64,000 nt of DNA, taken from NCBI GenBank assembly GCA_014871385.1, contig CM026423.1, positions 23,545,067 to 23,609,066 on the forward strand, given 5' to 3'. This stretch comes from Ceratodon purpureus. Taxonomy: Eukaryota > Streptophyta > Bryopsida > Pseudoditrichales > Ditrichaceae. Under the pieces are notes generated by a model. The model did not search any database and was not told the DNA's origin. It worked only from the letters and a program-made list of their open reading frames with translations. The translations under genes and the position numbers were made by a program. Shown piece by piece: positions 351-64,000 of this stretch (within the stretch, counting starts at the first letter, position 1; each line of letters opens with the position of its first letter).

Positions 351-1126
351 GTACGTTAGCTAAGAAGTTGCTTCTGCATATGTTTAAGTTCCCGCTGTTG
401 ACGAATTATGAGAATATATGGACAAGGATGTGCATGAATTCAACACTTCTATATTACACGTAAACTATTAATTTTACACGCATTGTTCAGATATGACAGT
501 TTTTATTTTACTAATCATCGACTTCAGGTATGTAATGGTACTATGAGAACGGTAGGAAAGATTCATTGAATTTATACTACATCTGATTTTCAGGATTTTT
601 ATGTGTATGATGTTATGCCAGATTAATTGTTCCATTTATTAATAAAACGTGAAGATTAAGGTTGCCCCCTTCATCTTACCTTACCGGGATTTGACAATCA
701 CTTTCACAGATTAAGGTTGCCCCCTTCATCTTACCTTACCGGGATTTGACAATCACTTTCACAGATTAAGGTGGCCCCCTTAATTCTAATGTACAATTAC
801 GATTACCTTATTCACGATGAATAACTTCTTGTTGACTTTCAATATACTTGCGATGACCGTCGTAATTCCGTTTCCCACTTCTACAATGATTAAGAGCAGG
901 AGTTGTTTTTCTTTCACCGTTAGAGTTCTGGATTGGGAGGATTTTGAATTATAATTAAATTTAAATTTCTATAAGCGATTTGCATCTTCGTCATTGTTAT
1001 ATTGGTTTCTGATGATTATTTTTCCCTTGTTCAAAATTGATATTCTTGCGCATGTATGGGCAGTGACGGAGATTAAGGTGACCACCTTAATTCGAACTTT
1101 AACCATAACGTTATATGCTTGTGCAA
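351..1126 (+). other. Probable intron of the DUF7869-like gene
   Basis: Starts with GTACGT directly after exon 1. It is AT-rich and has no coding frame. It holds two exact 55-bp tandem copies (654-708, 709-763) and four members of the 20-bp palindrome family (655, 710, 765, 1072). The 3' end reads GTGCAA before the in-phase GTT at 1127; a G-to-A change of an original CAG acceptor would explain this. Confidence 0.5.
654..763. repeat. Two perfect 55-bp tandem units
   Basis: The unit beginning GATTAAGGTTGCCCCC is repeated exactly at 654-708 and 709-763. A third start at 764 diverges after about 15 bases. Each unit begins with a degenerate copy of the dispersed 20-bp palindrome. Confidence 0.95.
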
Positions 1127-4100
1127 GTTAACCTTGCGTTAGGATTACCACCCATTTCTTCGTCGAATGTGAGTTTTCTGAGACGAATGGAGTTCACTGA
1201 CTGTATTATTAAACGTCGGGGGGATATGATTGCGCGATGTGGTACATGCGACCGGAGGAAGCAGCTGAGGGACGCTCATCCTTTAGGTTCTATTGCCTAA
1301 TCGTTTTATGCGAAATCACTAGGGCAACATCTTGCCGAACAAGAGGCTCATCGACAGGCATATTATTCGTCACGATACTTGTCAATTCAGAGGCCAGACA
1401 AAGTTCTAACAATTATCCATGATAAAATGGATCATTCTAAGACGGCCTCGCCATGTTTTGCGAACAGAAATAAGAATACGGATGGTTTGATGAAACTTCC
1501 CGTTTCGGTGACAGGTATGATAGCCCATGGGCACGGTGATGTCAGGTATGCTCATTACGCTCTCGATCTGTACAAGGCAGACTCGAATCATACTGTTGGC
1601 TCCATCGCTAGACTTCTCCGTGATCTAGAGCGGCTGAAATCGACGACAACAGGCACACTATTTGAGAACTCTGGCAGAACAAAGCTGTTTAGCGCACTAT
1701 TGGAAGGAAAGGACTCCTGTATTACTGCATTGGGCGTGTCTCGTGAATCAGCGGATGCGACTCCTCTCCCCCCCGTTCTTCATGTGCAACTAGACAACTG
1801 CTAGAAGGACAATAAAAGCAGGTTTGCGTTCTGCTTCTGGTCACTCCTTGTTGCGAAAGGGGTATTTTCAAAGGTTTTTGTATCATTTCTTCTTGTGGGT
1901 CACACACATGTAGACATTGATGCCTCTTTCGGAAGGTAGAGCATGAAACTGAGGGAGAACGATTATCCGACTCTGCCATCCCTCATGGAATCGTACATGA
2001 ATATTGACGAGAATACAGGGAAAGTAATTCCTCATTTGATCGAAGAAGTTCCTGACTTCAAGGCCTTTGTTGAGCCGTATATTGCGAAGGACGGGGATAA
2101 GCTTATAGGCCATACTAAGGGTCAGCAGTTCAAGTTTTCTATGCGCGAAGGTGAGCCGGTTATGCTGTTCAAGATTCTGTGCACGGATGAGCTCTGGAAG
2201 CCTACGGAGGGAATAAAGTTGTGGTCCACTGACATAACAGGAAAGCAGGTGCTGCCTTCCGGGGAGCCGAAAGAGGCTATTCCTATTCCAATGAGCAACA
2301 AAGACGAGATTGTGAAGGGGTTGTCTGGGTTCATAACGTATTGGGAGTCTCTTGCAGCACAGGATACGTCTGGGAACTACCTAGCGCAAAACGGATCTCT
2401 GATTGCTTACTAGAAAGGGGTGAGGGACGCTATGGTCTTACCGGCATCCACTACGGAGGTGCCACTAGATCTGGTGGACGGTTTCTAGCCTTCTACTCGG
2501 GTGCATGAGGGAGCGATTGATCTTTTCAATGCCGATGGTGGCATTCTGGAGGAATTTGATGATGACGATCATTTCATTGGCCCCGCCAGGGCGAGGCCAC
2601 AACCGTCCTTCCGTGTGGCGCGTGACTGCGCCAAAGGGTTCATGCTTCTGTTGCGCCCTGGAGAAAGCGATGAAGAACCGAAACCGGTTTGGCTAGCTCT
2701 GGCCCTTTTAGATCCGAAGTTGACTTCTTCACATGAGCATTACAAGCACATTCACGTGCAGTACTTCACGCCTATAAAGAAGGATCATGAAGTGCAGGAC
2801 TTCTACCGTAAGTGGGACACTACTGGAAGGGAAGCTTTGAGATGGCGGGCAGATTCTGCACAGCCCCCTTGTTGGGTGCACACGGACTCTATCTTAACTG
2901 CATGGAAACCGAGAGCTGGATCCATTAACATAAGTATTCCAACCTTGCAAGTGGAAATTGATAAGGATAATTTGAGTCGATGCGACTCTTCTGAAGAGGA
3001 CCTCGAGGAATCTGAAAGTACGTGAGAAGTTTTCAGGTAGAATTTTAATGACGGATAGTTCTGATACTGGAAAGGGATTGTGTCCAGTAGTATGCGCGCA
3101 ATGGGTGATGCTGGATTAAGGTGGTCACCTGAATCTGGTGGGATCTTTTTCTGCGCAGTTGTGCTATATATTGTTTATGATGAGCCTCGCCTTACCGCAA
3201 TAGTGGCTCCTCAGCGAGACATGTTATTTCACACGTAGTGATGGGCTATCCAAGTTTTATTGCAAAACGTTTAATACAAGGTTATTATGTCGCATTCATG
3301 TAGGTGTTATAGACTGAACGATAGTAATCTGAGATTAGAGTACAATTGCTTTTGTGTAAAATCGGAATTCTAATTTTTTATTCATATTCTATAGTATCCA
3401 TTATAATTGATTTATGCTGTTACTCTCTCCAGTGGTTTTACGAATTGGATTGTCGATGGCTACGTCTAAATGCAATGTGGGAAGTAGCGGTTTTCCGAAT
3501 ATGTAACTCTAACATTAATATTGAAGTGGTATACGGAAGTATTGGAAGTGATACTGAGCTTGTTTGGCGAAGTGTATTAGATTGCATTGACGGGTAATTC
3601 AACCGAGTAGAACGCCGAATCGTTAGAAATGCCTGTTCGGGCCCAGGGAAAGGTCTGAACTTAATTTTGGAATGAGATAAGTAAGGGCGACCGCCTTGAT
3701 CTAGAGTACAAAATCAATGGATCTATGTTTTATTGTGTCTAGAATTGTTTGACAATTATTTTGTGTCCAAGCACAATCCTTTGACTTTCACTTGTTCCTT
3801 ACTTCCACAGCGTCTTGGTTGAATTTTGTGCAATGGATTCGTGTCACGATAAACATATCGCCTGGAATGACGTAAACGCCGTCTACTACAGCTGGTATGT
3901 GTAGACTCATCAATTTGCTCAGAATAAAATTAGCGAGTTTTTGATATATTCCTAAATCTTATAAAATATTGCAGTTGTCAAGATTATTGTCTAAAGGAGT
4001 AGGATCATTTTTCAATCATACGGAATAATAAGGTCCTCTCCTAAAAAACGCAAAATATAGCCGTTTACGAGATATTTGAGTCTAAGAGGTTAGAATTAAG

Positions 4101-4850
4101 GCAGTCACCTTAATCATATTTGAGTAATGATAGTAATCAATTTCAGGTGGTGAGATTCTGGAAATTGAGGTAGCCACGTAAATTTTGTATATTACTTGTT
4201 TAAGTATGAATTTGAACAGATTTACACTTGGACTACAAATAAATTTTACGTCGCTTAAGGCCCTCTATACAAGGCATGTCTATCAGTAATTGAAGTTCAA
4301 TGTAGCGTGAAAAACATTCATGTGAATATTAATTGTAGAGATATCTTTACAATTTGGACATGTTGAGTTGGAGTCATAGAAGTCCGCATTATCTAGAGTA
4401 ACTATTACCATTGTTTTGAATGAATTGTAGTTGACGATATTTTAAGAAGAGCAAGTAATGTAATAATAGGCCATCCTGATGATGAAATGATGCGATCTCT
4501 ATATTAGAATGTGAATTACAGGTTCAGTTGCCAAGCCATGGCTCAAAACTGTTGGTTGGAATGAGTGTGTTCCATATAATCGGTCCGGGTTCAAAACCCA
4601 TTGGACTCGTCGTGAGCGAACTTGTGGTACATCATGGCTTGGTGCTGCTGGAGAGAAATTCACAGGCAGGAAATGTTGTACCAACCAACAGGGCCCACCT
4701 GAAGCACCTGAGATAGAGCTTGAAGATGCAGTGACAAGATGTTACAACGGTGGCTGTTGCCACCACCTCAATAAAAGGCGGTAGTTCTGACTATCCCTTT
4801 AATGAGGTACACCTTTTTATTTCCCATGCATTTAAGGTGATAACCTTAAT
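655..4850. repeat. Dispersed 20-bp palindrome family, consensus ATTAAGGTGNNCACCTTAAT
   Basis: Nine copies lie in non-coding DNA around the DUF7869-like gene. They start at 655 and 710 (half-degenerate), 765, 1072 (ATTAAGGTGACCACCTTAAT, both 9-base arms perfect), 3115, 3681, 4095, 4164 (degenerate) and 4831. The two centre bases vary freely while the arms are kept. At 3681 the eighth arm position has changed T to C and its partner A to G, so pairing is preserved. I saw no copies elsewhere in the window. This behaves like a binding or recognition site belonging to this element family rather than a simple repeat. Confidence 0.85.
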
Positions 4851-5303
4851 TGCTTAGACATAATAAGCAAGTGTACCAATCTTGATACATTATATCCCTT
4901 GAACATTTTTATCGTCTAATGTGTAAACTAGCAAAATAAATGTATGGAAGCAGTTGATATATGAAGTATATTTAGGAGAAGGTATTATTTGTTATTTAGT
5001 AAGATATAAATAGTTTAAGTATCTTCCACAATTTTAGAATTTAATCAAAATACTAAAACATGCTTATGTCAAATGTAATATATGATCAAAATCACAGAAA
5101 TAAAGATTCCTTTGCTCATTACTTGTTTCTTGAACATTCTGAAAGCATAAGGATCCACATTGGAAGCGAGTTATCGGTTGTATTTTTTGAATCTCCCAAT
5201 ATTTATAATCTTATACTATTCTCAATAGAGTTCTAGAAACCTTTCAACTAATTTATGCTGTGCTTCGAGGTACTGACAAATGTATCCATGGAAGTTACAT
5301 TTA
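3026..5303. other. AT-rich non-coding flank of the DUF7869-like gene
   Basis: No convincing ORF; the short open frames here lack codon character. It contains five members of the 20-bp palindrome family (3115-4850), suggesting that most of it still belongs to the same element. No right-hand terminal repeat or target duplication was recognised. Confidence 0.5.
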
Positions 5304-21672: not shown

Positions 21673-21740
21673 ACTTCTATAGGGGGTAGCTTGTATGCGT
21701 GCGGCGAGCGGCGAGCGGAGATTTGAAGAGCGGAGAGCAG

Positions 21741-36307: not shown

Positions 36308-36346
36308 AATGGGCGCCGGTCATCCCCTATGACCGTGGCGCCCATT
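36308..36346. repeat. GC-rich hairpin
   Basis: AATGGGCGCCGGTCAT at 36,308 pairs with ATGACCGTGGCGCCCATT at 36,329, leaving a 5-base loop and a 2-base bulge. It stands exactly where the T-rich region turns into GC-rich promoter-like DNA. Confidence 0.85.
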
Positions 36347-41836: not shown

Positions 41837-41959
41837 CGTGCCGCTTACACGGCCTTTTTGTGACCTGATTTTGCCCCTAATGTGAAAGGCTCATAATATA
41901 CATACATCACTACTCATATACAACTGTATTGCATTCATGATTTTTTAATCACACCAATC

Positions 41960-42472: not shown

Positions 42473-42484
42473 TCTCTCAAACAA

Positions 42485-43130: not shown

Positions 43131-43206
43131 CTCGAATCTCCGCTCGCCGCTCGCCGCACGCATGCTAACTTTCCCTACTTCTATATGTAATATGCTGAAA
43201 GATGTA

Positions 43207-46121: not shown

Positions 46122-46543
46122 TGGTAAAGGGAGGATTTCCCATAAAACCCTAACCTTCACAACCCATCAAAACCCTACAAAAACCCAACTAGCAATGGTG
46201 CTGAAACACTCATACAATGCTAGAAACACTCAAAAGAAGTGGAAAGTGAGTCAAAACTGTATAAAGAGGGTTAAATCTCCCCCAAGATCATGGTACAGTA
46301 GCTCATAAAGGCTCCTCAGTCTCTCCTAACTCTGAGTGCACTAGTGAGGAATGATCCAAGAAACCCTAAAACTTGCCTTAAGAACCTAGCAGAAAACATC
46401 CAGTCGGCTACGACAGAGTTCATCCAGTCGGCTATGACAGAGTTCATCCAGCCGACTGGATGACTGTCGGAGCCAGGGATGAAAAACTGCGAAAAAGGCT
46501 ACTGAAACTGAGGGAGGGAAGATTGAGAAATCTCCGGTTAACA
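46122..46543 (-). repeat. 3' LTR of the young Gypsy element
   Basis: 422 bp, TG...CA ends. Contains two direct CATCCAGTCGGCT units spaced about 28 bp and one inverted CAGCCGACTGGATG. Confidence 0.96.
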
Positions 46544-46557
46544 TTATCCCCTTTTTC
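46544..46557 (-). promoter_or_regulatory. Polypurine tract for plus-strand priming
   Basis: Minus strand reads GAAAAAGGGGATAA directly before the 3' LTR, the usual place and composition for a PPT. The core AAAAAGGGGAT is repeated at 56,880, 57,380 and 57,684. Confidence 0.85.
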
Positions 46558-46743
46558 CGGTAGTTCTGTCCTCAGAACGTAGGGGCAGGGAAAAAAAGGG
46601 AATAAGAAAACACGACCTCGGTGTAGGAAAAATGAAAAAGGCCTAAAAAAATAAAATGTAAAAGAAAAAAGACTAATCTATTCGAACTAAGGAGAAGAAG
46701 AAAGAAAAAATTGGGGCGCTGCCGTCAGTCTTCAAGCAGTCGG

Positions 46744-49700
46744 CTAAGGCAGAGTCGGCTCTGCGCAGGTGAGCTCCTCATCTTCCAGCCAGGGCTCGAA
46801 GGTTGGGTCCCGTTCCTCAAAACGAGTCAGCCACCGTTGCTGCCGGGCCAAGTCGGCACTGTGTGCAATCAAGGCTGCAGCCACATCTTGCTGTTTAGTA
46901 ACAGCGTAATCTCGCACAGCGCGGCTAAGCTCCCGTGGCTGCAGGGTAAGGGTGGCCAATTCGGTCTTGAGGCGCTGGTTCTCCAAAATGAGGTTATCTG
47001 TTTGGAGCAGGCGAGCATTGAGGCTGTGCTCAAGCTCAAGTCGCCGAGTCGAGGGTGACGGTTGTGCAGAAGGTGGCGGCTGGGCCGCTAACTCCGTTTG
47101 AAGTGTCGTAACCTTGTGCCGAAGCTCAACGTTCTCCCGGTCCAGGTGATGCTGTGTGTCCTCCGCAGATTGCAGTCGAACAGTGAGGTCAGTGACTTGT
47201 GAGGTGAGGGTCGTGACCTGAGATTCGAGCTCTGTGACGCGGATAGCTGTGGTCTGTCGGGTGGCTTCTACCTGACGAGCAGCAGTACGTGTCCGTACGA
47301 GGACCGTGGCAATGGCATTCAAATTGTTCAGCAAGATGCTGAAGTCGGAAGACGAATTCTCAGCAGCTCCCAGACCATCAGGTGAGTCATCAGGTGGACC
47401 ACCTGAGGAGCCGGTGGAGTTGTTGCAAGTCGGGCGGTGCACTGGTGGTGTTGGTGAGGTGTTCCGTGGGTGAGGAGGAGTCGGCAGTGCTACCCGCGGC
47501 GGTGGTCTTGACGAGGACGGGTCGGCTGTGGGAGTAGCGGCCCTGGGTGGAGTCGAGGTCGGCTGAGTAAGCCGACTGAAGATTGGATAAGGCCGCCAAA
47601 CGGTAATTGCCATGCTCGTTAGAGGTTGACTGGGTCGTGCTGGCGATTGAAGGGGGCCTTGGTCGGGCTGTACTGAAGGTAGGTCAGTCTCCAGAGGGCC
47701 TGTCGAACTGATGGGCTCGAGAGGTGGTTGGTCAGGCTGATCCGATGCTGAGGACTCGTTGGAGGAGCTGCAGACGACAATTGGAGGTGGTCGTGGTGGT
47801 GCAGTGGCTCTGCCGGCGATGAACGGAGGTTCTGAGTCTGATGACGGAGCGGCATACCGGGCGTTGGGTGTGCGAGACCGCAGTGGGTATCGGCAGGATG
47901 GTGAAGCTCCCATCGCCACGAGTTCGGGGGAAGCAAGGTTGCCGGGTAGGGTGGATGGTGCCACTGATGGAGCCTGCGGGCCGAGACGACGCAACCGTTT
48001 ACTCGGCCGACCAACGTCAGAGGAGGCTTCATGGGAGCGGTTGGAAAGTGGTGTCGTCGGCTGCGGGTCCACCGAGTCGGTGATGGTTGCTGCAAGTCCA
48101 TCGCCACTAGTTTGAGCTCTTAGGGCAGAGCCGACTATGTCCGGGTGGGGGGGCGTTTGAGCAGGAGGGCCTTCGTGGCTGCCGTCGGCTGTGTCGAAAC
48201 TAGAAGAAACGTGGCGGGGTCCCGTAACCTGCTCTCGCTCCGGAAACCAGTAAGATAGGATGGCATCCAGGACAGGTGCTCCTCTGAGGCGGCGGGTACC
48301 TGGAGCCTGTGAGTGTATGTAAACCAAGTGTCGTCGGAGGTTGGTGAGGACGAACTGCGACCAATCGAAACGCTTCCCTTGGGCACCGGCAGCCTCAGCA
48401 GCACAAATGTGGTCCATGAGGTCATTGCTGACAAACAGCAAACGCTGTTTGAACCCAATAGCGTCGCCAATTGCTTGGGTCCGTACCTGATAATCGGGCA
48501 GGAGTGCGGTGGCTCGGTTACCATCGTGCTGCCAGTCCTCCTCGGCGAGACCGTACCGGCTGTAGCGTTGCTGATAGCCCGTCACCTGCTTACGACTGCT
48601 GAGATCCACTCCAGCCTCAAAGCCCAACGCAGCACGGATAACATAGGCAGTGAGTTCAACCGGCTTACCTCTAACCATAGAGCGAATAGGACCGCCCAAC
48701 TCACTTGCAGGTCGTCGCTTTCCCTTCGGCGGCTGTGTATACTCAAAACCCTCAACAAAATCGAGCAGGAGCTCTGTCCGAGGCTCCGGCCACTGGAAAT
48801 GATAAAAAACCTCCAAACTGGTCTGAGCTGCCCAATCCTCATCTTCCATCCTGGTCCAAGCAGTCCACTGTGTATATGGTTCAAAGACGACATCCCATCG
48901 GCGGTTAGGGTTGCGGGGGACCTGTATGGGTTTAGGAACACGGCCATCTACTGGGGTAAGCTTGCGCTTTGTGCCCCGTCGCTGATCCTTGCTAAGGCCC
49001 GTGGAATTCGCAGCCGACAGTGGTTTGGCGATAGCTGCAGCAGGACTTAGTGATGCTTCAGCATCAGCGGCTAAGCTGGGTGGCGTCTCCATAGTGGGTT
49101 GAGGCTGGCTGGGGCCGGGCTCGTCCATAAAATCTAGGCGATCTGCAGGAGGAAGAAGGCCCCGAGCAAAATACCGTTCGAGGGTCCCGAAGTGTCCACG
49201 TCTTCGACGTCGGCTATGTCGTCGATGCAGCGCAGAGACAGTTGTAGTAGAGCTGTCGATGAAGCCACCCCGTAATGCGTATGCCTGCGAGCAATGTATG
49301 GGGAACTCCAACGGGTCTGATGGGCTGCTCTCCGACGGGGACGTTGGAGGCGGGTCTACACCGTGAGCTCGATTTGTAACACAATGAAATTGATTAACAA
49401 GAGCTGGTGCGGAGGGAGTGAATGAACCTGAAGGGCGGGCTGTGGGATGGCAAACCCTATCGGTGAGCTGATATTGACAGTCGGCCGCGGTGTCAATTGG
49501 TGAAGGAGAAGCACCAGGGCAGGGCCGCGCCGTGCCAACTACAGTCTCCGACTTCACGGCAGCAAGAAGACCCGACCAGGAGGAAGGAAAAACGGTCGCA
49601 GCACCGAGGGACAGTCGAGAACTCGGAGAGTTGACAGACGGGGGAACAGCAACATCTGATGGTGTACAAGAAGAAGGGAAAAATGAAAATGTTGCATTAA

Positions 49701-52700
49701 TGCACTGACCCGATGTGTGTTGGGTCGTCGGTGGCTGTAAACCAAGGGAGAAGGAGGGTTGATGGTCGACGTAGGGTGCCGAAAACAGCGGCGCTACCTT
49801 GCTGCGGCCGCAAAGGCCAGAGGGAAAGCTGTCGGCAGGCGCAGAGAGTGCAGCTGAAAAGGGAGCCGCTGCAACTGAAGGCGCGGTGCCGGAACTCCGA
49901 GCAGTGTGGATAAATGGTGAAACCCGCGGTTGCTCCGAGTCCGTTGCTGTCGTCACCCGATGCACTGTGGAAGCTCCAAAAAGTGGAAAAGGCCGCAAGA
50001 GATCAGAGTCCAATGCCGAAAGACGGGTCCTGGGGGGCTGTGTAAAACTAAACCCTAGGGAAGAATGGGGAGGCAGTGTAGAGGTAGGGAAAAGTGGTGG
50101 CGCAGCATCGGGTGAGCTGTTGGCCTGGGAAGGAAATGAGAGAGTTGGATGTGGCGAGAGAGAAAAAGGGTTAGCCCGGTCGATGGGCTGAACGGAAAAG
50201 CACCCAACCGCAGGAACAAGTGGTAGGGTAGACTGGGTGTCATTACTTCTGAGAGGGTTGGTTGGGATACTAATGGCAGGACCTAAAGTAGGGTTAGGGG
50301 GGCACGCAGAGTCCTCCATTGCAGCGGGAAGGGAAGAGGCAGAGAAGATTGGCTGACTTTGGTTGAGCTCGGTATCACTTAATTGACGCTGCTCAGAAGT
50401 GGTTGATGGAGGCTGCTGCTCGTTAGGGTTCGTGGTTGAGCCACGTGGCAATTGCTTGGGGCCGACAGTGACCAACTGATCTTCAGAATAAAACCTGTAG
50501 GGTTTGAGCTTGTTAATGTTGACAATAATCGGATTGGGTTCAAAATGTTCTTCAGTGACTAGCAGGGCGGTGTTGTTAGGCAGCCGGTACTGAACACAAT
50601 ATGGCCCGAACCACCTGCTCTTAAACTTGCCAGCATGTTCCTTTTCGCCTTTTGGATACCAGAGAACATGGTCTCCCACTTGAAAGTCTTTCTGTCGGTA
50701 GTGTTGCTGACTCCACAGAGATCTGCTCCACTGCCGACTACCCGACTGATCTTGAGCTGCCAACCTGTGACTGTCCAACTGCTCCAAGTCGGCTGTGCGG
50801 GCCTGTAAAACTCGAGTATAAGTGAAATCGAGTTCACCATCAGTTCGGCGGGTAGGGACAGTATATTCAGTGGGCATAAGTGGATGTAGCCCGTATACCA
50901 ACTGAAAAGGTGTGTATCCAGTGGTAACTTTAAAGGCTGTCCTGTAGGATAGTAAGGCCGTGGGTAAATGTTCGTCCCAGTCGGTCCTGTTGTCACTGAC
51001 GAGTTTGGTAAGTATTCGACCTAGAACCTTGTTTGTGGATTCTGCTTGTCCATTGCCCTGTGGATAGTAAGTTGTAGATGTCCGATGTTGCAGGAGAAAA
51101 TGCTGTACCAAGTACTCGATGGCTTCGTTGATGAAGTGAGTGCCCTGATCACTAACCAGAGTTAGAGGGCAGCCGTAGCGGGTCAGGATGTTCTCATACA
51201 GAAACTTGGTAGTGACAGCGGCCGTATTCGTGCGGAGCGCCTTAGCCTCCACCCACTTTGTTGCATAGTCGGTTGCAACTAGAATATACCTGTTACCTGT
51301 CCTCGCCGCTGCCGGCTTAATGGGCCCTACAAAATCCAAGCCCCACTTCATGAACGGCTTTGCAGGTAGGCTGGTGACTAACTGGGCTAGTCCTGTGTTG
51401 GCCAATCCTCCGACCCGTTGGCATTTGTCGCAGGCCCTGCAATACTCTGAAACGTCCTTGTGTAGGGTCGGCCACCAGTATCCAGCATCCAGAATCTTCC
51501 TGGAGGTGATATCTTGGGAGAAGTGGCCACCTGCGCAGCCATCATGCATCTCCCGCATAACCGTGTCGGCTTGGACAGGGTCTAAGACCCTTCGGAGTAC
51601 CAAATCCTGCCCCTTCTTATGTAAGACTCCGTCCAGCAAGGTATATGGGAGGGCCCGTAACAGTAACTTCCGCTTTTCATCCTTCGACATGGTGGCAGAC
51701 GGCTCTCCAGTGCGCAGGTAGTCCCTGATGTCCTGCAGCCACTCCGGGGACACGTAGAATAGGCCAGCATCAGGAAGCTGGTCGGGAACTCCTGTAGGTG
51801 GCTCACCGTTGGGAAGTCGGCTGAGCAAGTCGGCTGCGCCATGCGTCCGGCCGGGCTTGTACACCACTGTGAAATCATATTCCTGAAATAGCAGAAGCCA
51901 TCGGGCAATCCGCCCAGACACTTGAGGCTTGTTAACCAAGTATACCAGAGCCATGTGATCTACAAAAAAAACCACCTTGTTACCCAAAAGATAATGGCGA
52001 TATTTGTTAAGGGCATAAACCATAGCCAGGGCTTCCTTTTCTGTGGTGGTATAATTCTTTTCAGCAGAATTAAGCAATCTAGAAGCATAAGAGATCGGCT
52101 GGTCACATTTCCCTGTCTGGTTCTGAGCCAACATAGCCCCGACGGCTATGTCAGAGGCATCTGTGTGGACATGAAACTCCAAATCCCAGCGGGGGGCAAC
52201 CAGGATTGGTGCCTTCGTGTATCTGTCCTTGATCTCCAACCACGCAGCTTCACACTTGTCCATCCACACAAACTCTTCGGATTTTCGCATCAGTTTGGTT
52301 ATGGGCTCCATGATGTGAGCATAGAATTTAATGTAAATTCTGTTGAACTGCGCAAACCCATTGAAAACCTGTACGTCAGCTCCGTGCTGTGGTCGGGGCA
52401 TCTCCTGGATAACTTCAATCTTCTTAGGGTCTGGCATCTTGCCTGCCTTGGAAACCACATGGCCTAGTATAATGCCAGAGGTGACCAGAAATGCACACTT
52501 CTCCGGATTTAAACTGATGCCATACTGCCTGCACTTCTCGAAACATAGGCGCAGTTTCTGTAAATGGTCGGCTAGGTCGCTGTACACTGTGAAGTCATCT
52601 AAGAACAACTTCATAAATCGCCCCAAGTATTCCTTGAACGCTTTGTTCACAGCCCTCTGATAAGTCGGCGGTGCATTAGTCAGGCCGAAAGGCATGACCA

Positions 52701-55700
52701 CCCAGACAAAGGCGCCCCATTCTGTGATGAAGGCAGTCTTGTGCCTATCCTCCGGAGCAATCGAAATCTGATAGTAACCAGACCGACCATCCAGGAAGGA
52801 GTACATCTCATAACCTGCCACAGCATCTAACACCTCTTCAGTAAACGGTAGAGGGTAAGGGTCCTTTTTAGTAGCAGCATTTAATTTTCTGTAGTCAATA
52901 CAAATCCTTAATTGACCATTCTTTTTAGGAACAACAACAATGGGTGAGAGCCAGGTTGCTTCCTCGACTGGTATGATGAACCCTGCTGCTAACAGTTTGT
53001 CAATATCCTGTTTGACAATGCTGGCATAGTTCGGGTTCATCCTGTAACGGGCCTGATGGATAGGCGGAATGTCTTTCTCCAGCACAATCCGGTGCTGAGC
53101 TACCGATGGAGGTATGCCCTTCAAATCCTTGTATGTCCAAGCAAACACATCTGTATATTCCCTCAAGAGGTCCTCAGCTGCCTTGGCCATGGCTTGCTCC
53201 AATTGAGCGCCGATCTTCAAGATCTTGGGAGACTCCTCAGAGCCAACATTGATTTTGCGTAACTGCTCCTCTTCAGTCAGGTTCCATGCTGCCACCTTCA
53301 TATCCCCTAGCTTGTCTATTACAGGTGTTTCATCCACCGGCATGTCACCCTCCGTGAAGGTATAAAAGTGTTCTGGGTAAGTGGCAGAATCCGGAACTGG
53401 GGTAGGTACCTTCGCTGAGTCGGCGGTGCCCAAGTCGGCTCTTATGTCGGCTGTGGTACAGTCGGCTCTGCGAAGGTCGGCGGGGGGTTGGTTAATCCCG
53501 TTGTTAAGTGGAAGACTCAAACCCTCCGGTAGTGTAATAGTCCCCACTGCGAATATATCCTCTTCTGTCCTCAAAAAACGATCCTCCTCCTCGTCCGTCA
53601 GCCCTTCAGCTAAATTGTAACATACAAGTACTTCTGGCAGCTTGGGCAGAGGACCTTTTCGTTGGTTGATAGATATCGTCTTGACTGTGCCGTTACCCCG
53701 AATAGTAACCAGTTTGTTTCCCCAATCATGAGTAACCTTTGCATCTATGAGCCAAGGGCGGCCCAGTAGCATGCTGTAGGCTTCGTTGACCTCCTTGTTC
53801 CTGATAACAGTCAGACTGATGTTGTACGGAATACCATGGATATGAATCCGGACATTCCTTATCAACCCCACTGGCTCCACCACGGCCTGATCAGCCATAC
53901 GCAATCGATAAGGTGCTGGTGACGGCTCCTTCAACCCCAACCGAATTCGCTCCTCCTCAGTAATTAGGTTGACACCAGACCCTCCATCTAGGAGTACGTT
54001 ATCCAATGTTAACTGCCCCACCTGCACAGAAATGACCGGAAGGCCTCGATCAATGTCTACTGCACCAACAACCAGGTTGGGGTGTACCGATGATCCCTGG
54101 GGATTCTGGATATCCACTGGTGTTGTTGTAGGCTGTGTCTTCATTGAAGTCTGCTGATGCTGAACCGGCTCAAATGACAGTCTGTGCTGTCTCTGAGTAT
54201 TGGGAAATACTTTCGCTCTGACATACTCAGTAAGGTTGGGGGCCACTTCGAGCAGTTCCCCCAAAGACACAGTAATAGGTGTCTGTAAAATCTGTCTGCT
54301 CACAGTCTTAACGGCTGTTGAAGGCTGGGAAGTAGTCGGCTCTGTCGAAGTCCCAGTCGGCACCAGCTTGGGTGGCTCCTGCAAGCAGTCCGCATCAGGA
54401 AACCCTGCCCAGTCACTATCTAGTACTGGTCCATCTGTAACCGTGGATGTAGAGTTGTCCACATTTGCTTTTTGGAGCTCCTCTTCCTTTTGCTGTGCCA
54501 GCTCATTCTCTCGATTAATCTCCTCAGTTAAAGCAATGAATTCCTTCCGGAGCCGTTCCTCCTTCTCCCAGTCTGCCTGAGTCTTGGGCAGTCGGGGTTC
54601 TGGCTCCTTCAGTTCCTTATCTTCCAGTGGAAGTCCGGCTCGCACCCTAGCCGCCCTGGTTAGTATAGTGGCCACTTCAGGGTTATCCAACTCCTGCAAC
54701 TCCACACTGTTGACACCAACAGAGTTAGTTCCTAGCTTTTCAGCAGCCAACATTTGCTGAAACTTTAGACGTAAATGGCAATTACGCATCTGATGGTCAG
54801 TGCCCAAACACAAGAAGCACCCATCAATCCTGCCAGCTCCGCTGTTTTGATATCCTCCAGGTCGGCTGTTGAACTGTCTTCCTGAGCCACTAGTCGGTTG
54901 TGTAGCCGATACTTCGTGAACTCCTACTGTCGTCTTCCCATCTGCCCTGGGTAACCTGTTGTTTGGGTTATCTGGGTTCACGAAGCAGTATTTGTCTTCA
55001 TGCCCAAATTTCTTGCATACCGTGCAGAACCTGCGGTTGACTGTCTCCACCTGATCTGCCTGGGCATTTGCAGTACTGGCCCGACTATTAGTCGGCTCTG
55101 TCCTCTTGGCCTGAAAGTATAACTTCTTCCCCGAAGCGTCAGTACAATTAGTCTCACAACGCCTAGCCAACTCCTTCAGTTCGGTAAGAGTGTTTGCTGT
55201 GGACCCACTGGTAGTCACCTTCAAGTAATCAAGCAGACCTGCCCTGAAATATGTAAGCTTGAACCCTTCTCCCACTTCTGTCTGCAGGCACTTGATCAGC
55301 TTCATAAAACGTTCATAGTAATCTTGTACCTTCTCTCCCTCACCCTGTTTGAAGGTCCGGAGAGTCATGTAAACCTGCTCATCTGAATCCTGCTCTCGAT
55401 ATCGCAGTTTGAAAGCTTCCTTAGCCTCCTCCCATGTGCAGTAAAGATGGTGATCCAGCCAATCATCAAACCATCTCTGGGCTTTATCCACCAGAGTTGT
55501 CCCGAACAGTGTGATAATCACTTGTTCATCAGTTTCCCCATTGAACCAGGCACATTTATCAAAGTAGCGGAGATGGGCATCTAGATCACTACCTTCCTTG
55601 TAGGCTCTGTACGGCAACTGCTTTCGTTGAGTACTGACAGGGGGTCGAGGAGGTGCAGAGGTGAAGTCGGTTGTGCGGGCTGTGGGCACAGCAGGGGGTC

Positions 55701-57135
55701 GCACGACTGATGTCACTGTGGAATGCCTCGGAGGTTGTGGAGGAGGTGCAGCAGTGTGAGAGCCTCCGAGAACAGCAGCTGGGCTGTAGCCCACTAGGGC
55801 AGAGGATGAGGTGTGAACTGTAGGTCTTTCCCCATAAATCACTTCAGGGACGGATTCCCCAAAAGTGGGCTCTGCTATTCTGACAGGGAATTCTGTATGC
55901 TGAGTCGGCTGGGCAGAGTGATAGGTGTCGCCTGTAAGGTGATCCACATACGCAAACGGTCGATGGACTGCCGAGGGAGCTGCAGTTGGAAGGGGTCCAG
56001 GTGTCTTTCTATCCTCTGGCACCTCCGGAGTTGGGTCGGCTAAGTAGGGGGTCCTGACCGGAATCCCTTCAGTCTGTTCCTGTTCGCGCTCCCGTCTCTG
56101 TTCCTCCCATAGATCGTGCAGCTGCGCTAGCTCCTGCCTTTCCCTTTCCACCCTTTGTTGTTCTCGTTGCTGTGCCGCTAACTGCTGGGTGGCTAACCTC
56201 TGAGCTGTCTCCTGGACCCGTCGGTTGAACTCAAGCTCCCATGCAGTCTGAGACGGTTCTGGCGGCCACTGTGGCTCAGTATGCCAGTGATGCAACGACG
56301 CCTCGCCCGAGGGTGCAGCCTGCTGTAAAGCTTCCAATTGCTGGAGGTATTTACCTGGATCAGGCCTGTTGTGAGTGTGGGTTGTAGAAATCTGTCTGGC
56401 CCTCTCTCTTCTAGCTTGTAAGTCGGCTTTGAATGCTTCCACAGCTCGCCTGTCCTCCTCTTCTTGCTCCCACTCAGCCCGGAGTCTGAATTCGTCCAGA
56501 AAATGAACATTCCTGCTGGGTCCACCTTCTGTGGGATTTGCAAGTCCCTGTTCCTGGACTGATCGACTCTTGGTCTCTTCCAGCTTCTGCTTCAAACTCT
56601 GAAAAGCAGCAGGTAAGGTTTCCAGGGTTTGTGGCAGGTGTCCAGGAGAGACTGGTCGGCTGCGCCCCCGAGTGGGCTCTGTGCCCGCGTCGGCTCTGCC
56701 AGTGACTGTACTGGGCCACTGGGTTGGTTCTGCGAAGACCTCCTGCGTCTGTCTACGTTCTTCTCTGAAAGTGTTGTAATCATCTGCAGCAGTGGAAAAA
56801 TCCCTCCTGAATGATGATGTCCTCTTCATGTCTTGATACTTCCAGGGTGTACTAGTTGGGTCAGGCTGACGGCTCAGCCTATCCCCTTTTTCGAACTGTG
56901 TCTCCCCTCCAAATCTGCTCTCTCTGGTTCTGCCATCTGATGATGACAGGTCGTTTTCCACCTCCATGTCAATGAGTTCTCCTACCTGCTTAGCCGCACT
57001 GCCCTGTGAGCTAAGTCGGCCATGTCCTTCCGCTGGAGTTGGCTCTGTCGCCCGTTCATCCCGTTGCATGTAGCGTCTGAATCGTTCCCTGGCTTGCCTT
57101 TCTGCTCGTAGGTCATTTTGGTCCCCCTCCTCCAT
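46744..57135 (-). CDS. Gypsy gag-pol polyprotein with large C-terminal extension
   Basis: 3463 codons in one frame, ATG at 57,135. Order by approximate residue: Gln/Glu/Arg-rich N terminus (1-480); retrotransposon gag (500-650); two CCHC-like knuckles ([14 protein letters not shown] near 698, [14 protein letters not shown] near 773); aspartic protease LLDGGSG near 1050; reverse transcriptase 1350-1560 with LFLDDF as the YxDD-type motif; RNase H from [11 protein letters not shown] near 1655; integrase zinc region near 1865 and core D,D,E ([22 protein letters not shown]; 1930-2030); GPY/F-like module near 2180. The last 1200 residues are unusual: Ser/Pro linkers, a globular domain (about 2740-2960) with [18 protein letters not shown], and a terminal coiled-coil (about 3290-3370). 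That domain resembles the LTR-encoded protein at 60.8 kb. AGTCGGCT is strongly over-represented in the DNA. No stops, so possibly active. Confidence 0.95.
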
Positions 57136-58152
57136 GGATGTTGGTTGTTGACTGTTGAGTTGTTCTGCTTCTTGTATGGTGCTACTTGCCTCTGCTGTTG
57201 ACTGATTGCACTTCTCCCTTCACAGTCAGTCGACTGTTCACTGTCCTGAGTCTTCCTGCCAATACAACACTCACAGACCGCAGCCCCCTAGCTGTGTGGC
57301 CCGGTTAGTAGTACCATCTTTTTCCTTACTGAAAATTTTTACTGAACATGTTCTGGGGTATACTTCCCAGCTGTTTGCTATCCCCTTTTTCGCAGTGTAT
57401 TAACTCCTACAGATTTGTAATCCTGTGGTTAACTGTCCTTACAGTTTTACCTAAAACACAATTCAATTGCAGACTCAAGTACTCCACACTATCCTACAGT
57501 CTGTCCAGGTCCCAACTTTGAGATCCGCAAGGCTGACTGAGGTGCCAATCGATATACCCAAATTCAAAATTCAAATTCCTTAACAGCAATTTTTCTGGAT
57601 CTGTAACTTTGAATCTAAAATACTAGGGTTACAGTGACTTACCTTCACCTCCTCTCCCTTGATGAGGTTGCAGATCAGCCTGTATCCCCTTTTTCGATCT
57701 GTGAACTGCCCTCAGTTCACTGTGGTGGGTGATTAAAATTCTGCCTCTCACAAAATGTCGCAGCACCTACGCCCTCCAGTCTGCAACAGATCCGCTCTGC
57801 TGTCACTGCGCTCTGGACGTGTGCTGGTCTGCCTCTGTAACTGCACCAGTGCCTCCACCTTGGAAACACCTGAGTACTTGTTGTCCTCTGTCTACTGCCC
57901 CAGTGATGTTGAGTGAAACACCAAAGATTCTGCCAGTGGTGATGGTGCAGCCTGCCCCCAATGCAGACACTTGCAGTGACTCCCAACACCCAATCAAAAA
58001 CTGTGCAGCCTGTGAACTGAGAATGAACAACAATCAGCACTACTAGGAGGTCGTAACAGCTCCTGCTGCACCCCTGCAGCCCTAATAAGTGTACTTTCTA
58101 ACCCTTCTAGTGTGTGGACAGCCCCCAAACAGCAGGAGATTCACATGGAACG
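57136..58152 (-). other. 5' leader of the young Gypsy element
   Basis: About 1 kb between PBS and ATG on the minus strand. No ORF of note. Contains two extra polypurine-like cores (57,380 and 57,684). Packaging and leader functions are presumed. Confidence 0.6.
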
Positions 58153-58171
58153 AACTAGAGCATGGTCGCCA
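58153..58171 (-). promoter_or_regulatory. Primer-binding site of the young Gypsy element
   Basis: One base inside the 5' LTR the minus strand reads TGGCGACCATGCTCTAGTT. A TGG start complementary to a tRNA CCA end is expected. The matching tRNA was not identified; it differs from the TGGCGCCG PBS at 63,703. Confidence 0.7.
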
Positions 58172-58172
58172 A

Positions 58173-58594
58173 TGGTAAAGGGAGGATTTCCCATAAAACC
58201 CTAACCTTCACAACCCATCAAAACCCTACAAAAACCCAACTAGCAATGGTGCTGAAACACTCATACAATGCTAGAAACACTCAAAAGAAGTGGAAAGTGA
58301 GTCAAAACTGTATAAAGAGGGTTAAATCTCCCCCAAGATCATGGTATAGTAGCTCATAAAGGCTCCTCAGTCTCTCCTAACTCTGAGTGCACTAGTGAGG
58401 AATGATCCAAGAAACCCTAAAACTTGCCTTAAGAACCTAGCAGAAAACATCCAGTCGGCTACGACAGAGTTCATCCAGTCGGCTATGACAGAGTTCATCC
58501 AGCCGACTGGATGACTGTCGGAGCCAGGGATGAAAAACTGCGAAAAAGGCTACTGAAACTGAGGGAGGGAAGATTGAGAAATCTCCGGTTAACA
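58173..58594 (-). repeat. 5' LTR of the young Gypsy element
   Basis: 422 bp; I see one difference from the other LTR (GGTATAGTAG here, GGTACAGTAG there). Followed by the TSD GGGGT. Confidence 0.96.
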
Positions 58595-60179: not shown

Positions 60180-60559
60180 TGTGGAAAGTGATTTCCACGG
60201 TTGACACACCGGAATACTAATTCCGGTAGGAAAATGATAAAAAAATTAAAAATTTTATGTTAGAAATACGGAAGTACTAAGCCTATAAGTAAAACAACCG
60301 GTTTAGCCGGTCGGCTGAATAAATAAGAGACCAGAAGGCCAGCCGGGTGAGATCCGGTCGTCTGCGGTGGAGGAGAGACGGGTGCAGTCCATATGACAGA
60401 GCCCTGACCCGGCAGACTTAAGGATAACCACCAAAAGGTACAACGCAAACGGGGATAATGGCTGCAACCATTAAAACGCCGCCGGTCGCGACCGTCCAAT
60501 GATGAGGGGCTACGACCGTCCGTCATGATGAGCTACGAACGGGTGGGCGCGAGGGCAGG

Positions 60560-60566
60560 TATAAAA
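60560..60566 (+). promoter_or_regulatory. TATA box of LTR copy 2
   Basis: TATAAAA within GGTATAAAAGGAGG, 205 bases upstream of the ORF start. Likely drives both the genomic RNA and the LTR ORF. Confidence 0.78.
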
Positions 60567-60770
60567 GGAGGAAGAACCGCCATGCTCCTCCTTTCTCTTT
60601 GTCATTTTGTGGCACGACGGGTCCTTGCGCTCTAAGGCGGAGGGCGCAGTTAGGGTTAGACGGTAGGAGAGAGAGACGGTGAGACGGAAGTGTTTCCGTT
60701 AGGCGAGAGATTGTGGTGAGGATCGTGCGTGCAGGTGTTACCGGAGTGACGGAGAGGAGGACTTAGCAGA

Positions 60771-62636
60771 ATGGGTAGGAAAGGGAAGGAACCGGCGGCG
60801 GAAGGACAGTCGTTCAGGGTACAACGGGTAATGCCGTTGATACCGGCCGGCGAGAAGGAGAAGGAGCTCCTCCGGACCGCCTTAGAGTCTATGAGATGTG
60901 AGGTCCTACTGGACAAGGCATGGGGTTGGAAGCTTGCCCTTCCGGCCCAGGAGATCCTCGTCAAGAATCCCGAGAATCGAGGAACCATTCGGGGAGAGCC
61001 GGATCAGTGGACGGCACAACTCTGGAGGGAGACGTATGGTTTCAAGAACTCCGGCGAGGTCTCGACGCCGGAGCCCCGGGACTTCGTACACCGGTATCTC
61101 AAGGGGGCCGGAGACCCGAGAGAAGGATGGGGGCTGGATGACATTGCGGATCCGGAGGCCCGGAGAGTCGTAGGGTTTATGAACCCTATTTTCCATCCGG
61201 AAAAGCCCAAACGGATCACCAACAAGTGGGCGTCCGTTTTCATTGGGGCCATGATCGGTGAATTCACGGTGGACTGGGGGGTCATGATGAAGACGATAAT
61301 CGACCGACAGGTGGCCAATCTCCGGAAGACCAAGAAGCAGGCCACCTGCCTTCCGTCTTTCCTCATTCACCTCTACCGTACTAAGGGGCTGTTGAGTGCT
61401 GAGGAGGTCCGGGAGTACGATGAGCTCTTAAGCTATCAGCAGTTCGCTGAGCCGGAAGAAGTGTCCGACCAGGACGACGATGATGATGTTATTGAGGTCT
61501 CCCCCACGCCGGCTAAGAGACCCCGTCCTAGCCCGGAAAAGGGACAGCCATCCGGATCACCTCGGACTCCCGTACCGGCCAAGCGAACCCTGAACACGGA
61601 GATCCAACAGCCCACCGGACCACCGGAGCACACCGGAGATCCGTACCAGGACTTAGTTAACCTATCGGAGCAGGCGACGACGTATGCCCGGTTCTTACAG
61701 TCGACTAGGCAGGCGGAGGGCCGGTTGGCTAGGGAGGTAATGATCCTTACGGGTTCGGACCGGTTGGAGGATTGCCTGAGTATTCTTCGCAAGCACCGGG
61801 ACTTGGCCGGTCTCCAGGAAAAGCACATGGACCGGCTAGCGAAGTACCGGGAGACGAATCGGAAGCTCGAGGAGGAGGTGCGTGATGCCCGGAAAGATTT
61901 CAATGACGCCCGTGACCGGTCAGTCGAGGCCATCCGGTCGGTCGCCGAGATCAAGGCCACTTTAGCTCTTCCGGTAGATGTGGCCAACCAGTGCGCCGTT
62001 TACCAGGCCTTCCTGACCCGTCAACCGGATCCGACTATGAAGAATATAATAAAGTTCATGCACGACCGGACGCAGGTGATGAAGGACACTTGGATGATGA
62101 TGAAGAACCTGGTGGAAGTCCTCGGTTACGCAGAGGCCGGTCCGTCATCAGGGCCACCGGCAAATCAAGAGGATCCCAGACCACCGTCACCAACCAGGGA
62201 ACCGGCACCGGTGCCACCTCCAGCCTCTCCGATACGGTCGGCCATCCGGTCAGCCCAACAGGAGGTAGGACACCCGCTGGAGGATCCTATTCCGGATACC
62301 TTGAGCAGTCTGCACACTCTACCCAACTTGGATGGAGTCGAGACTGTTAACCCCGGAAACATTCCTTTGGGACCGGACCAGAGACCACCACCGGTAGATT
62401 TTATACCGGTACAGGGATCTCCGGAAACGCTCCAGGTGGATCTCAGCGCAGTTCCGGTGGCGGCACAATCTCCATCCCCGGCGGTTCAAGCAGAACGATC
62501 CCGGAAGTCCAGTGAACCGTCGGCATCTGAGGCTCCGGAAGAAGGCCCCTCGTTGAAGAAACTGAAGCGGGTACAGAAGAAGGAACGGTTGGACGGAACC
62601 CGGCATTGTCCCCGGCTCGATAAGCACAAGGAGTAG
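60771..62636 (+). CDS. LTR-encoded accessory protein (Transposase_32-like domain, coiled-coil)
   Basis: 621 codons, no stops. The N-terminal globular domain (about 20-205) contains AWGWKLALPAQEILVKNP, RGEPDQWTAQLWRETYGF and FIGAMIGEFTVDWGVMMKTI. The pattern RGxPxxxTAxxxRxxxGF and the later DW...L...P.L..L spacing match the C-terminal domain of the 3463-residue Gypsy polyprotein and the plant retrotransposon domain Transposase_32 (PF20167, from memory). Next come an acidic run, a basic Pro-rich segment (AKRPRPSPEKGQ, NLS-like), a coiled-coil (about 330-390), a Pro-rich region and a Lys-rich end (KKLKRVQKKERL). The position inside an LTR means two copies per element and expression from the LTR promoter. 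Nuclear, nucleic-acid-binding or anti-silencing roles are guesses. Confidence 0.75.
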   Translation: MGRKGKEPAAEGQSFRVQRVMPLIPAGEKEKELLRTALESMRCEVLLDKAWGWKLALPAQEILVKNPENRGTIRGEPDQWTAQLWRETYGFKNSGEVSTPEPRDFVHRYLKGAGDPREGWGLDDIADPEARRVVGFMNPIFHPEKPKRITNKWASVFIGAMIGEFTVDWGVMMKTIIDRQVANLRKTKKQATCLPSFLIHLYRTKGLLSAEEVREYDELLSYQQFAEPEEVSDQDDDDDVIEVSPTPAKRPRPSPEKGQPSGSPRTPVPAKRTLNTEIQQPTGPPEHTGDPYQDLVNLSEQATTYARFLQSTRQAEGRLAREVMILTGSDRLEDCLSILRKHRDLAGLQEKHMDRLAKYRETNRKLEEEVRDARKDFNDARDRSVEAIRSVAEIKATLALPVDVANQCAVYQAFLTRQPDPTMKNIIKFMHDRTQVMKDTWMMMKNLVEVLGYAEAGPSSGPPANQEDPRPPSPTREPAPVPPPASPIRSAIRSAQQEVGHPLEDPIPDTLSSLHTLPNLDGVETVNPGNIPLGPDQRPPPVDFIPVQGSPETLQVDLSAVPVAAQSPSPAVQAERSRKSSEPSASEAPEEGPSLKKLKRVQKKERLDGTRHCPRLDKHKE

Positions 62637-63693
62637 AATTTAGGATAGGGACCGGATAAAATGGCAGCGACTAACGATGGGGCTCCAGTGCACCCGGCTG
62701 CCAATCCGGATAGATAACGGCAGTAACTAGGAATAGAAGGCGGCCACCGGTCCGGGATTCCCGGATCCAAGATCCGGAATTTCTGGATCTCGGTGGGCCA
62801 CTTGGTCGCTTTAGGAACCGATAGGTTTTAGTATTTAAGTTAGACGTTTTTCCAAGGCCGGGGCCTTGTTTTTGTACGCCGTTTTGTTGTTGCAATTGAG
62901 AATATACTTTTGGATTTGTTGTGTCAACCGGCTGCTGACGGGTCCGTTGCCGTATGGTTTGTGGTTCTATTGTCTTCAGTAGTGTTCCGGAGGAGTGTTG
63001 AACAGTAGGAAGGTCAGGAGAGCGCCCGGAGAGACTGGGGAGGTGTCAAGCGTCGAGTGTTGACGGTTTCCAGTCCCGGAAGGAGCCCGTAGGGAAGGAG
63101 AGACGTATTGCAGCAGGGCTGGTAGTCTCAAGGACACGGAGAGCCGTGTGTACACCGGGATCCGGAAACGGACCGGTCGCTTCCTGTAGATGGGATAAAA
63201 GCCGGATGTCCTACTGCGAACCAATCCGGAAGGGAGATAGTATAGTAGAATACTGTGCAGCCGTAAGGTGATGTCATTGTAGTATGATTTCCGTATCCGT
63301 AACCGGCACTGAGTAGTTATCCGGACCGGTCCCTAGCCGTACGGAAGGATTATTACTCCACTTCTCGGGTGGTAGATAGGAACAGTGGGGTGTCCAGCCA
63401 CTATAAGTCACGGGACGGTGGAAAATCCAGCCACTTGAAAGGATAGACGGATCAGTGGGAACCGGCCACTAGTCTAAAAAGCCGGAAAATAGGAACGAGG
63501 CAAAAACTACCGGATTCGTCCAACCGTCTGTAAGACGGAGTACGGTCGGACACTGGTGGTGATTTCCGTTAAAGTCTAAAAGGAAGAAAACTATAGGTCT
63601 TCGTGGGAACGAACACGGAGTGGTTTACTTTGGAGGGTATTTAGTGTGAATTAAGTGCCTTCCGGAGGAATACGGATACCACGTCGTGCTACA
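62637..63693 (+). other. 3' non-coding part of the giant LTR
   Basis: No ORF. Dense in CCGG-containing words (GATCCGGAA, GACCGGTC). Presumed R/U5. Confidence 0.55.
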
Positions 63694-63702
63694 TGTGATT
63701 TT

Positions 63703-63720
63703 TGGCGCCGCTGCCGGGGA
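63703..63720 (+). promoter_or_regulatory. Primer-binding site of copy 2
   Basis: TGGCGCCGCTGCCGGGGA closely matches the PBS used by many plant Gypsy elements, often assigned to tRNA-Asp. It lies ten bases after the inferred LTR end. Confidence 0.85.
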
Positions 63721-63787
63721 TCTATATGATTTTCTTTCTCCGGATTTCTACGGTTGTCACTAACCCAAGTCAGGTTGTAGAAAACGC

Positions 63788-64000
63788 ATGAATCCGAATT
63801 CGGAGCCGGAAGGAGTACGGAGGTCTAGTAGAAAGAAGAAGGGTGATCAGGAGACGGAAGCCAGACCATTCGTCACTACTAGATCAGAATTTATTGAAGA
63901 CACAGATCAAGAGATAGCTGGGACTTCCGGATCCGGAGGTCAGGGTGGGACAGTACCACCCGGGCCGGTGGCCGGAGGACCGGTAGCGGGTCTTCCTATG
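63788..64000 (+). CDS. Start of gag (polyprotein) of copy 2, runs off the window
   Basis: 71 codons open to the edge from ATG 63,788. Starts MNPNSEPEGVRRSSRKKKGD: a basic, then Gly/Pro-rich N terminus as in many plant Gypsy gag proteins. The position 68 bases after the PBS fits. Only the beginning is visible. Confidence 0.65.
   Translation, partial: MNPNSEPEGVRRSSRKKKGDQETEARPFVTTRSEFIEDTDQEIAGTSGSGGQGGTVPPGPVAGGPVAGLPM

Follow-up and report, generated by a model that had tools for sequence, protein, structure and literature searches.

The window analysed here is the whole 64-kb stretch C3:23545067-23609066 of the 362.5-Mb genome of the moss Ceratodon purpureus. Five mobile elements lie within it: a DUF7869 element (A), a 21.5-kb terminal inverted repeat (TIR) element (B), an 11.7-kb TIR element inside B (C), a Ty3/gypsy element (hereafter Gypsy) and a Ty3/gypsy element with giant long terminal repeats (LTRs) that runs past the window (L). 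Each carries a short word of its own far above chance, and these words, pointed out in an original prediction made from the window alone, are the subject of this report.

All words of each element were counted with strands pooled and compared with 12 first-order Markov (Markov-1) shuffles per element. For coding DNA, synonymous codons were permuted so that protein and codon usage were kept, and codon-order shuffles were also used. Genome-wide word counts were set against the reversed word, and the background was sampled with 15 ten-kb windows, placed at round positions of contigs C1 and C3, and with a single copy of each relative. Relatives of Gypsy were sought by reverse transcriptase (RT), with 150 of 1779 candidates scored and 10 kb of one copy per family taken, which cut reading frames; G2, G3 and G4 denote the three nearest relatives and G5 a relative at 83% RT identity (copy at locus L028, half-copy at L011). 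The RT search with L scored 150 of 1718 candidates, and its sister L2 is known from one copy (L032). Loci L005 and L006 hold L and its partial copies, L031 a relative of C, and L029 and L030 further copies of the B word.

Five words and where they occur

In each element the word named in the original prediction, or a piece of it, came first in the scan. The top 8-mers were ACCTTAAT in A (8 vs 0.25 expected), AACGGCAC in the left part of B (8 vs 0.1), TGCCAGCA in C (17 vs 0.6) and AGCCGACT in Gypsy (19 vs 0.34), and the top 4-mer of L was CCGG (457 vs 138). For A, B, C, Gypsy and L, in this order, the highest −log10 P values were 9.6, 12.5, 18.6, 26.1 and 100.4, against shuffle maxima of 6.5, 5.1, 5.0, 5.1 and 2.1. 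The claim that each word stands far above chance was thus borne out on recounting in the window, five of five exceeding their shuffle maxima. A is the weakest case, and three of its sites sit in a tandem repeat. Six controls (host region 8500-20000 and loci L010, L013, L015, L018 and L023) gave 8-mer values of 3.7-5.5 with shuffle maxima of 4.2-5.8, the host region exceeding its own maximum by 1.3. In the 4-mer scan all six controls exceeded their shuffles (3.4-6.9 vs 2.3-2.8), so a 4-mer is judged by the size of its value, which was 100.4 in L and 31.7 in L2.

Across the whole genome, the A palindrome has 115 exact sites (reversed control 0), the B word 1344 (0) and the C word 3159 (92). Among 50 listed C-word sites, 41 fall into five groups (8, 9, 9, 9 and at least 6 within 6-9 kb) and 9 are single. 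Counted by region, AGCCGACT/AGTCGGCT has 19 occurrences in Gypsy and 0-1 in every other region listed, TGCTGNCAGCA occurs 10 times in C and nowhere else in the window, and the 5.4 kb of L within the window holds 124 CCGG (42.7 expected). The 15 background windows contained 3-20 CCGG each, compared with 240 in L005, at most one AGCCGACT each, and neither the B nor the C word.

The words had been described as private and unmixed. They are nearly confined to their own elements, with exceptions: AGTCGGCT at 21109, 21133 and 45567, within LTR remnants akin to Gypsy; a further AGTCGGCT at 38594, inside C; isolated parts of the A and B words that occur in B, C or Gypsy; and the lone C sites. The remnants, at 20818-21143 and 45278-45744, match the LTR of Gypsy at ~75% identity. 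Of the words, described as mostly palindromic, those of A and B in the window are palindromes and AGTCGGCT is non-palindromic.

In a survey of open reading frames (ORFs) of at least 280 aa, one Copia and one other Gypsy (both at L018, the latter cut at the locus end), a CACTA transposase (L023) and the sampled host genes were without a word, and two tandem-repeat ORFs (L029 and L031) had words of their own. A word is found in each of the five window elements but not in every mobile element sampled. Under synonymous shuffling, host HSP70 and GH31 had no significant excess of CCGG, GCCGAC, GTCGGC or CTGNCAG. In k-mer counts against shuffles and the sampled host-gene and other-element controls, no equal density was seen elsewhere, and the enrichment was kept after dinucleotide (Markov-1) and synonymous-codon correction. 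The observation is thereby confirmed and is stronger than first stated, as the words are being maintained and differ between sister families. The features concerned are collected in Table 1.

Table 1. Positions (window numbering) of the elements, words and reading frames discussed
Feature	Position	Strand	Remarks
DUF7869 element A, word span	653..4851	n/a	ATTAAGGTGNNCACCTTAAT and variants; genome count against reversed control
DUF7869 ORF pieces of A	1301..2410	+	Pfam PF25273
B, 21.5-kb TIR element	21682..43176	n/a	inverted repeat and 9-bp target duplication ACTTCTATA
B-word array TGCCGTTAACGGCA	26213..27616	n/a	6 exact plus variants; repeats of ~106 and 181 bp
C, 11.7-kb TIR element inside B	30150..41884	n/a	TGCTGNCAGCA, 10 exact and 16 one-mismatch
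C ORF, 655 aa	37090..39054	+	5 exact TGCTGNCAGCA sites
Ty3/gypsy element (Gypsy)	46122..58594	-	LTRs 46122-46543 and 58173-58594; AGCCGACT 19 sites, both strands
Gypsy single frame, gag-RT-RNase H-integrase and C-terminal extension	46744..57219	-	AGCCGACT, 10 coding strand, 2 other
L, giant-LTR Ty3/gypsy element	60180..64000, runs past window	+	CCGG ~24 per kb
L accessory ORF inside LTR	60750..62636	+	predicted N-terminal globular domain and long coiled coil; candidate reader

Words of the LTR retrotransposons

Gypsy has LTRs that are 99.8% identical and a single frame of 3491 codons, and between the LTRs gag, RT, RNase H and integrase follow in the order of a Ty3/gypsy LTR retrotransposon; L has this gene order too. 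AGCCGACT occurs 10 times in the Gypsy ORF, against 0.91 after synonymous shuffling and a maximum of 5 in 2000 such shuffles. Some sites are locally clustered, with five GCCGAC packed into ~65 nt of the ORF and 24-bp repeats in the LTR. Families at about 96, 94, 93 and 83% RT identity were found among the candidates scored, in which all RT matches with internal stops lay on contig C6. The first three, G2, G3 and G4, carry 8, 14 and 11 AGCCGACT (0.64-1.24 expected under synonymous shuffling), while their identity to the window Gypsy at 4-fold sites is 0.37-0.41. Each has only 3-5 AGCCGACT sites in common with the window copy; the rest lie elsewhere, and all three frames are used. G3 and G4, at a 4-fold identity of 0.77, have 9 sites in common. 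As judged from these sequences, the Gypsy word is maintained within the lineage near synonymous saturation. Pro-Thr pairs number 36-43 in the four AGCCGACT-bearing proteins, against 24-25 from composition.

A different word is found in G5, in which AGCCGACT is absent, GCCGAC occurs 3 times and GACCAG 37 times. Under synonymous shuffling GACCAG was expected 12.9 times in this copy and 8.8 times in the half-copy at L011, where it occurs 24 times. Beside the latter, at L011:5855-7124, a second, clustered word was observed (TTTTACTG ten times and TTACTGCTC five times).

The 5' LTR of L spans 60180-63693, its 3' LTR ends at ~73070 and more partial copies extend to ~79 kb (window numbering). Over L and these copies (18.8 kb) CCGG ranked first of the 256 tetramers in over-representation, at 4.76x; the stretch contains several LTR copies, so the sites are partly non-independent. 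Density is similar in ORFs (25.2 per kb) and outside them (23.0 per kb) and falls to 0 per kb directly past the end of L. Spacing over the 18.8 kb is more even than random (variance/mean 0.70-0.81), and no clear helical period of 10-11 bp was found. Under synonymous shuffling, the accessory ORF holds 54 CCGG vs 28.9 and pol 92 vs 46.1, with a maximum of 59 in 1000 shuffles. Other CpG tetramers are depleted in the same stretch (GCGC 0.29x and CGCG 0.11x of expectation), and the pol ORF (L005:1354-5544) has no GCGC, where 6.3 would be expected from synonymous shuffling. Between diverged L pieces 516 of 585 CCGG were kept, and in each of the 6 pairs compared, some copies being used in more than one pair, CCGG was kept better than other CpG 4-mers; the non-CpG 4-mers TTTT and TGGG were kept as well as CCGG or better. 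CpG decay was rejected as the source of CCGG, given the absolute excess and a CpG frequency outside CCGG of 0.66 of expectation.

L2 resembles L at 87% in RT and 64% in the amino acids of pol, with a 4-fold identity of 0.36, and has another word, the non-palindromic TTCCG[A/G]. In its pol TCCGA is enriched 8.1x, TCGGA 5.5x and CCGG 2.7x, compared with 1.1-1.3x for TCCGA and TCGGA and 4.8-5.1x for CCGG in L. Enrichment is seen on both strands, as double-strand recognition predicts: TCCG and CGGA reach 4.4x and 4.0x in pol, and 3.8x and 3.9x over 1.2 kb of non-coding sequence. Longer forms of the word are somewhat commoner on the coding strand of the L2 ORFs.

Words of the DNA transposons

The sites of ATTAAGGTGNNCACCTTAAT and its variants in A lie at 653-781 (a 55-bp tandem repeat), 1072, 3114, 4096 and 4830, every one outside the DUF7869 ORF pieces at 1301-3025. 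The first of these pieces matched PF25273 at E 2e-10, and the second gave E 0.0012 and 18.9 bits, under the cut-off of 26. Forty of the 50 listed A sites are on contig C6, where the listed sites end, and several form recurring groups with spacings of 2-3 and 11-13 kb. An 11-bp minisatellite, CCAATGTGTTC, is present in 17.5 copies at 5304-5493.

TIRs, a 9-bp target duplication and a Mutator-like element (MULE) transposase are together hallmarks of Mutator-like transposons. B has a 42-bp inverted repeat (21695-21736 and 43123-43163, 93% identity) and copies of its target duplication at 21673-21681 and 43177-43185; none of the four B ORFs scanned against Pfam gave a transposase match. Loci L029 and L030 are alike to the window B only in short stretches around the B word, where the word forms the centre of a larger nested palindrome and the array units are 106 and 212 bp long. 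These arrays lie at L029:562-1343 and 4895-6135 and L030:851-1783, and 106 and 212 bp are close to 10 and 20 helical turns. At L029:2843-3803, 213-bp repeats run inside an ORF in which the B core recurs.

In the 655-aa ORF of C, TGCTGNCAGCA occurs 5 times against 0.04 after synonymous shuffling, and it occurs once in the ORF at 30898-32295 (0.01). C and its relative at L031 are 65-76% identical over 4.3 kb aligned. The relative holds 8 exact and 11 one-mismatch TGCTGNCAGCA sites, beside the 10 and 16 of C, and neither form was found in the host region or in Gypsy. The aligned blocks contain 8 distinct core sites, of which only 1 is common to both. A 384-aa ORF at L031:4302-5453 carries a repeat-driven word, CCCCGCAG (14 vs 1.1 expected). 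The original prediction placed the words in coding as well as non-coding DNA, which applies to C, Gypsy and L; in the window the B word, and in part that of A, sits in tandem repeats, both clustered outside recognised genes.

Readers of the words and rival explanations

The explanation favoured here, in which we place middling confidence, is that the words would serve as cis-addresses of element families, read by a family-specific and most likely element-encoded recogniser. Each element would keep a short predicted binding site at high density along its own DNA, and the recogniser, most likely a fast-evolving element-encoded protein, would load on its own kind only. A recogniser that co-evolves with its word would be expected to lead to sister-specific words and to their maintenance in families near synonymous saturation. 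The proposed reader is the LTR-encoded accessory protein in L, the C-terminal extension that follows integrase in the Gypsy lineage, and in the DNA transposons a transposase or accessory protein that may bind the palindrome as a dimer. We infer that such a protein would most likely cover the element body to hold off host silencing, or switch on transcription, as VANC does in VANDAL elements.

The accessory ORF lies within the LTR and is therefore present twice in L (60180-63693 and L005:5559-9070), with a third copy (L006:1436-3313) in a further tandem LTR, up to ~79 kb in window numbering. The structure model of its protein had an overall pLDDT (predicted local distance difference test score) of 60, with an N-domain mostly at 70-92 and a long coiled coil, and matched nothing in the PDB at E < 0.001. 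Five database relatives were found at 32-98% identity. Between L and L2 the accessory proteins are 29% identical, compared with 54% for gag and 64% for pol. The Gypsy extension comprises ~1250-1400 residues across the lineage (~1400 aa in the window copy), and in the G2-G4 windows identity is 18-69% in the C-terminal part, compared with 92-97% in RT. It holds a conserved region with one relative in the protein database; a Pfam search gave no family for this region or for the L accessory domain. Homology between the two candidate readers was considered and rejected, since only a weak VRG-type match was obtained (E 0.017, probability 2.6%).

Several observations weigh against this explanation. 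With no Pfam match for the accessory domains and no solved-fold match for the modelled one, DNA binding is not predicted from their sequence, and the fast change of accessory proteins may simply reflect weak constraint. Variability in G2-G4 extends to the gag part at the N-terminus and to the linker that precedes protease. A partial Gypsy at L011:7163-10000, which has integrase and the C-terminal extension, lacks a strong word, which weighs against a strict link between word and extension. CCGG is very short for a private address and would need to act by density. Only one tested C ORF has the word clearly, no single L031 ORF has it, and the top 8-mer of L031 is a different, repeat-driven word. 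Finally, AGCCGACT is distributed 43:2 between the coding and the other strand over the four Gypsy ORFs, which plain double-strand binding does not predict.

This strand bias leaves room for an RNA-level role in the Gypsy lineage, where the word could be read on element RNA, for instance by an export factor or, during packaging of the element's genome, by Gag. The same lopsidedness is seen in G5 (GACCAGG 13:0), and the sites use all three frames. Shorter cores are less lopsided, as with GCCGAC (21 vs 5.6) and GTCGGC (10 vs 2.1) in G2 and CTGGTC (10 vs 2.5 expected) on the other strand of G5. Accessibility in predicted RNA folds was not higher for the words than for planted ones (0.392 vs 0.424, P 0.26); for GCCGAC and GACCAG there was likewise no difference. 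Considering also that no RNA is packaged by the DNA transposons that carry palindromic words, and that both strands show enrichment of the L2 word inside and outside coding DNA, an RNA-level address is regarded as rather unlikely overall. DNA recognition is favoured for A, B, C and L because of this both-strand enrichment and because a structured site found no support in the RNA folds.

Alternatively, each word could be bound by a host factor acting in transcription or on chromatin, every family exploiting a different one. Short simple words would suit common plant factors, and AGCCGACT includes CCGAC, the core of the plant dehydration-responsive element/C-repeat (DRE/CRT) promoter element. 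An even, body-wide placement through coding DNA is nevertheless unlike a promoter, word-less elements share the same genome, and sister-specific words together with a fast-changing element protein are explained more simply by an element-encoded reader, so that a host factor is considered unlikely. Repeats that bind transposase or lie near the element ends, such as those of En/Spm and further TIR elements, would account for the A and B palindromes, given their clusters and arrays and the grouping of the listed A sites, but leave unexplained the coding words of C and those of LTR retrotransposons, which have no such transposase; as an account of the whole set this is improbable. An artefact of composition, codon usage, CpG decay or tandem duplication, although CCGG is CpG-rich, local clusters exist and control 4-mers also exceed Markov shuffles, is largely refuted and scarcely credible, as the words survive synonymous and codon-order shuffles, CCGG is in excess where GCGC and CGCG are depleted, GACCAG and TGCTGNCAGCA contain no CpG, and sites occur in all frames at non-homologous positions.

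The element-encoded, DNA-level address was compared with known systems. In Arabidopsis, as excerpts of two reports describe, a variable VANC protein reads the motif of its own VANDAL family, and density counts instead of single sites (PMC5735166, PMC10398659); the VANC21 motif YAGTATTAY lies in non-coding tandem repeats and the VANC6 motifs are different (PMC5735166). The present words agree with these excerpts in being short, family-specific, dense and different between related families, and the tandem B arrays match their picture of VANC targets. They differ in that the VANC motifs sit for the most part in tandem repeats of non-coding DNA within DNA transposons (VANDAL-type MULEs), whereas here three of five families carry words through coding DNA, two of these three are LTR retrotransposons, and words also occur outside tandem repeats (C, Gypsy and L). 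Excerpts on Sireviruses, which are Ty1/copia, describe a high-copy symmetric CGG-CCG motif, the RM boxes, in LTRs and upstream of env (PMC2829016). This is likewise a retrotransposon group with its own high-copy motif, but the elements here are Ty3/gypsy, with words that are body-wide, include coding DNA and differ between sister families. The excerpts of PMC5735166 and PMC2829016 contain no description of words through LTR-retrotransposon coding sequence.

A and B also resemble En/Spm, and the words of C, Gypsy and L differ from it in not being restricted to element ends. In TnpA-type systems, repeated short subterminal sites are read by an element protein. An excerpt of PMC10398659 mentions that TnpA activation goes along with demethylation.

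The dispersed packaging signals known from RNA viruses are, as a rule, regarded as sites with RNA structure. They share with the present words the use of many dispersed short signals, as proposed in an excerpt of PMC6281560, but no structural context was found here and the L2 word is enriched on both strands. A search of openly licensed literature for body-wide family words in retrotransposons and for DUF7869 returned only the above precedents, which is weak evidence of absence.

By analogy, a VANC-like interpretation fits the DNA-level cases best. The original prediction of a wider VANC-like marking that includes retrotransposons is partly supported: retrotransposon families do carry words, and the tests of density and of dinucleotide and codon bias on the sampled sequences did not refute it; its putative element-encoded, anti-silencing reader would follow by likeness to VANC. 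More tentatively, and rather less likely than not, moss LTR retrotransposons may carry a body-wide self-address of even density, in genic and non-genic DNA alike, with which their own accessory protein keeps chromatin open; as families split, word and reader would change in step.

These words bear on how selfish elements distinguish their own DNA or RNA from that of the many elements around them. Family-private words that run through coding sequence and differ between sisters offer a readable sequence signature for this and make the matching reader testable. If the proposed explanation is true, the logic of VANDAL DNA transposons would extend to LTR retrotransposons, the address word would bend the codon use of an element and even its amino-acid content (as the Gypsy Pro-Thr pairs may illustrate), and the coding sequence of these elements would be shaped by a DNA-binding constraint next to that on the protein.

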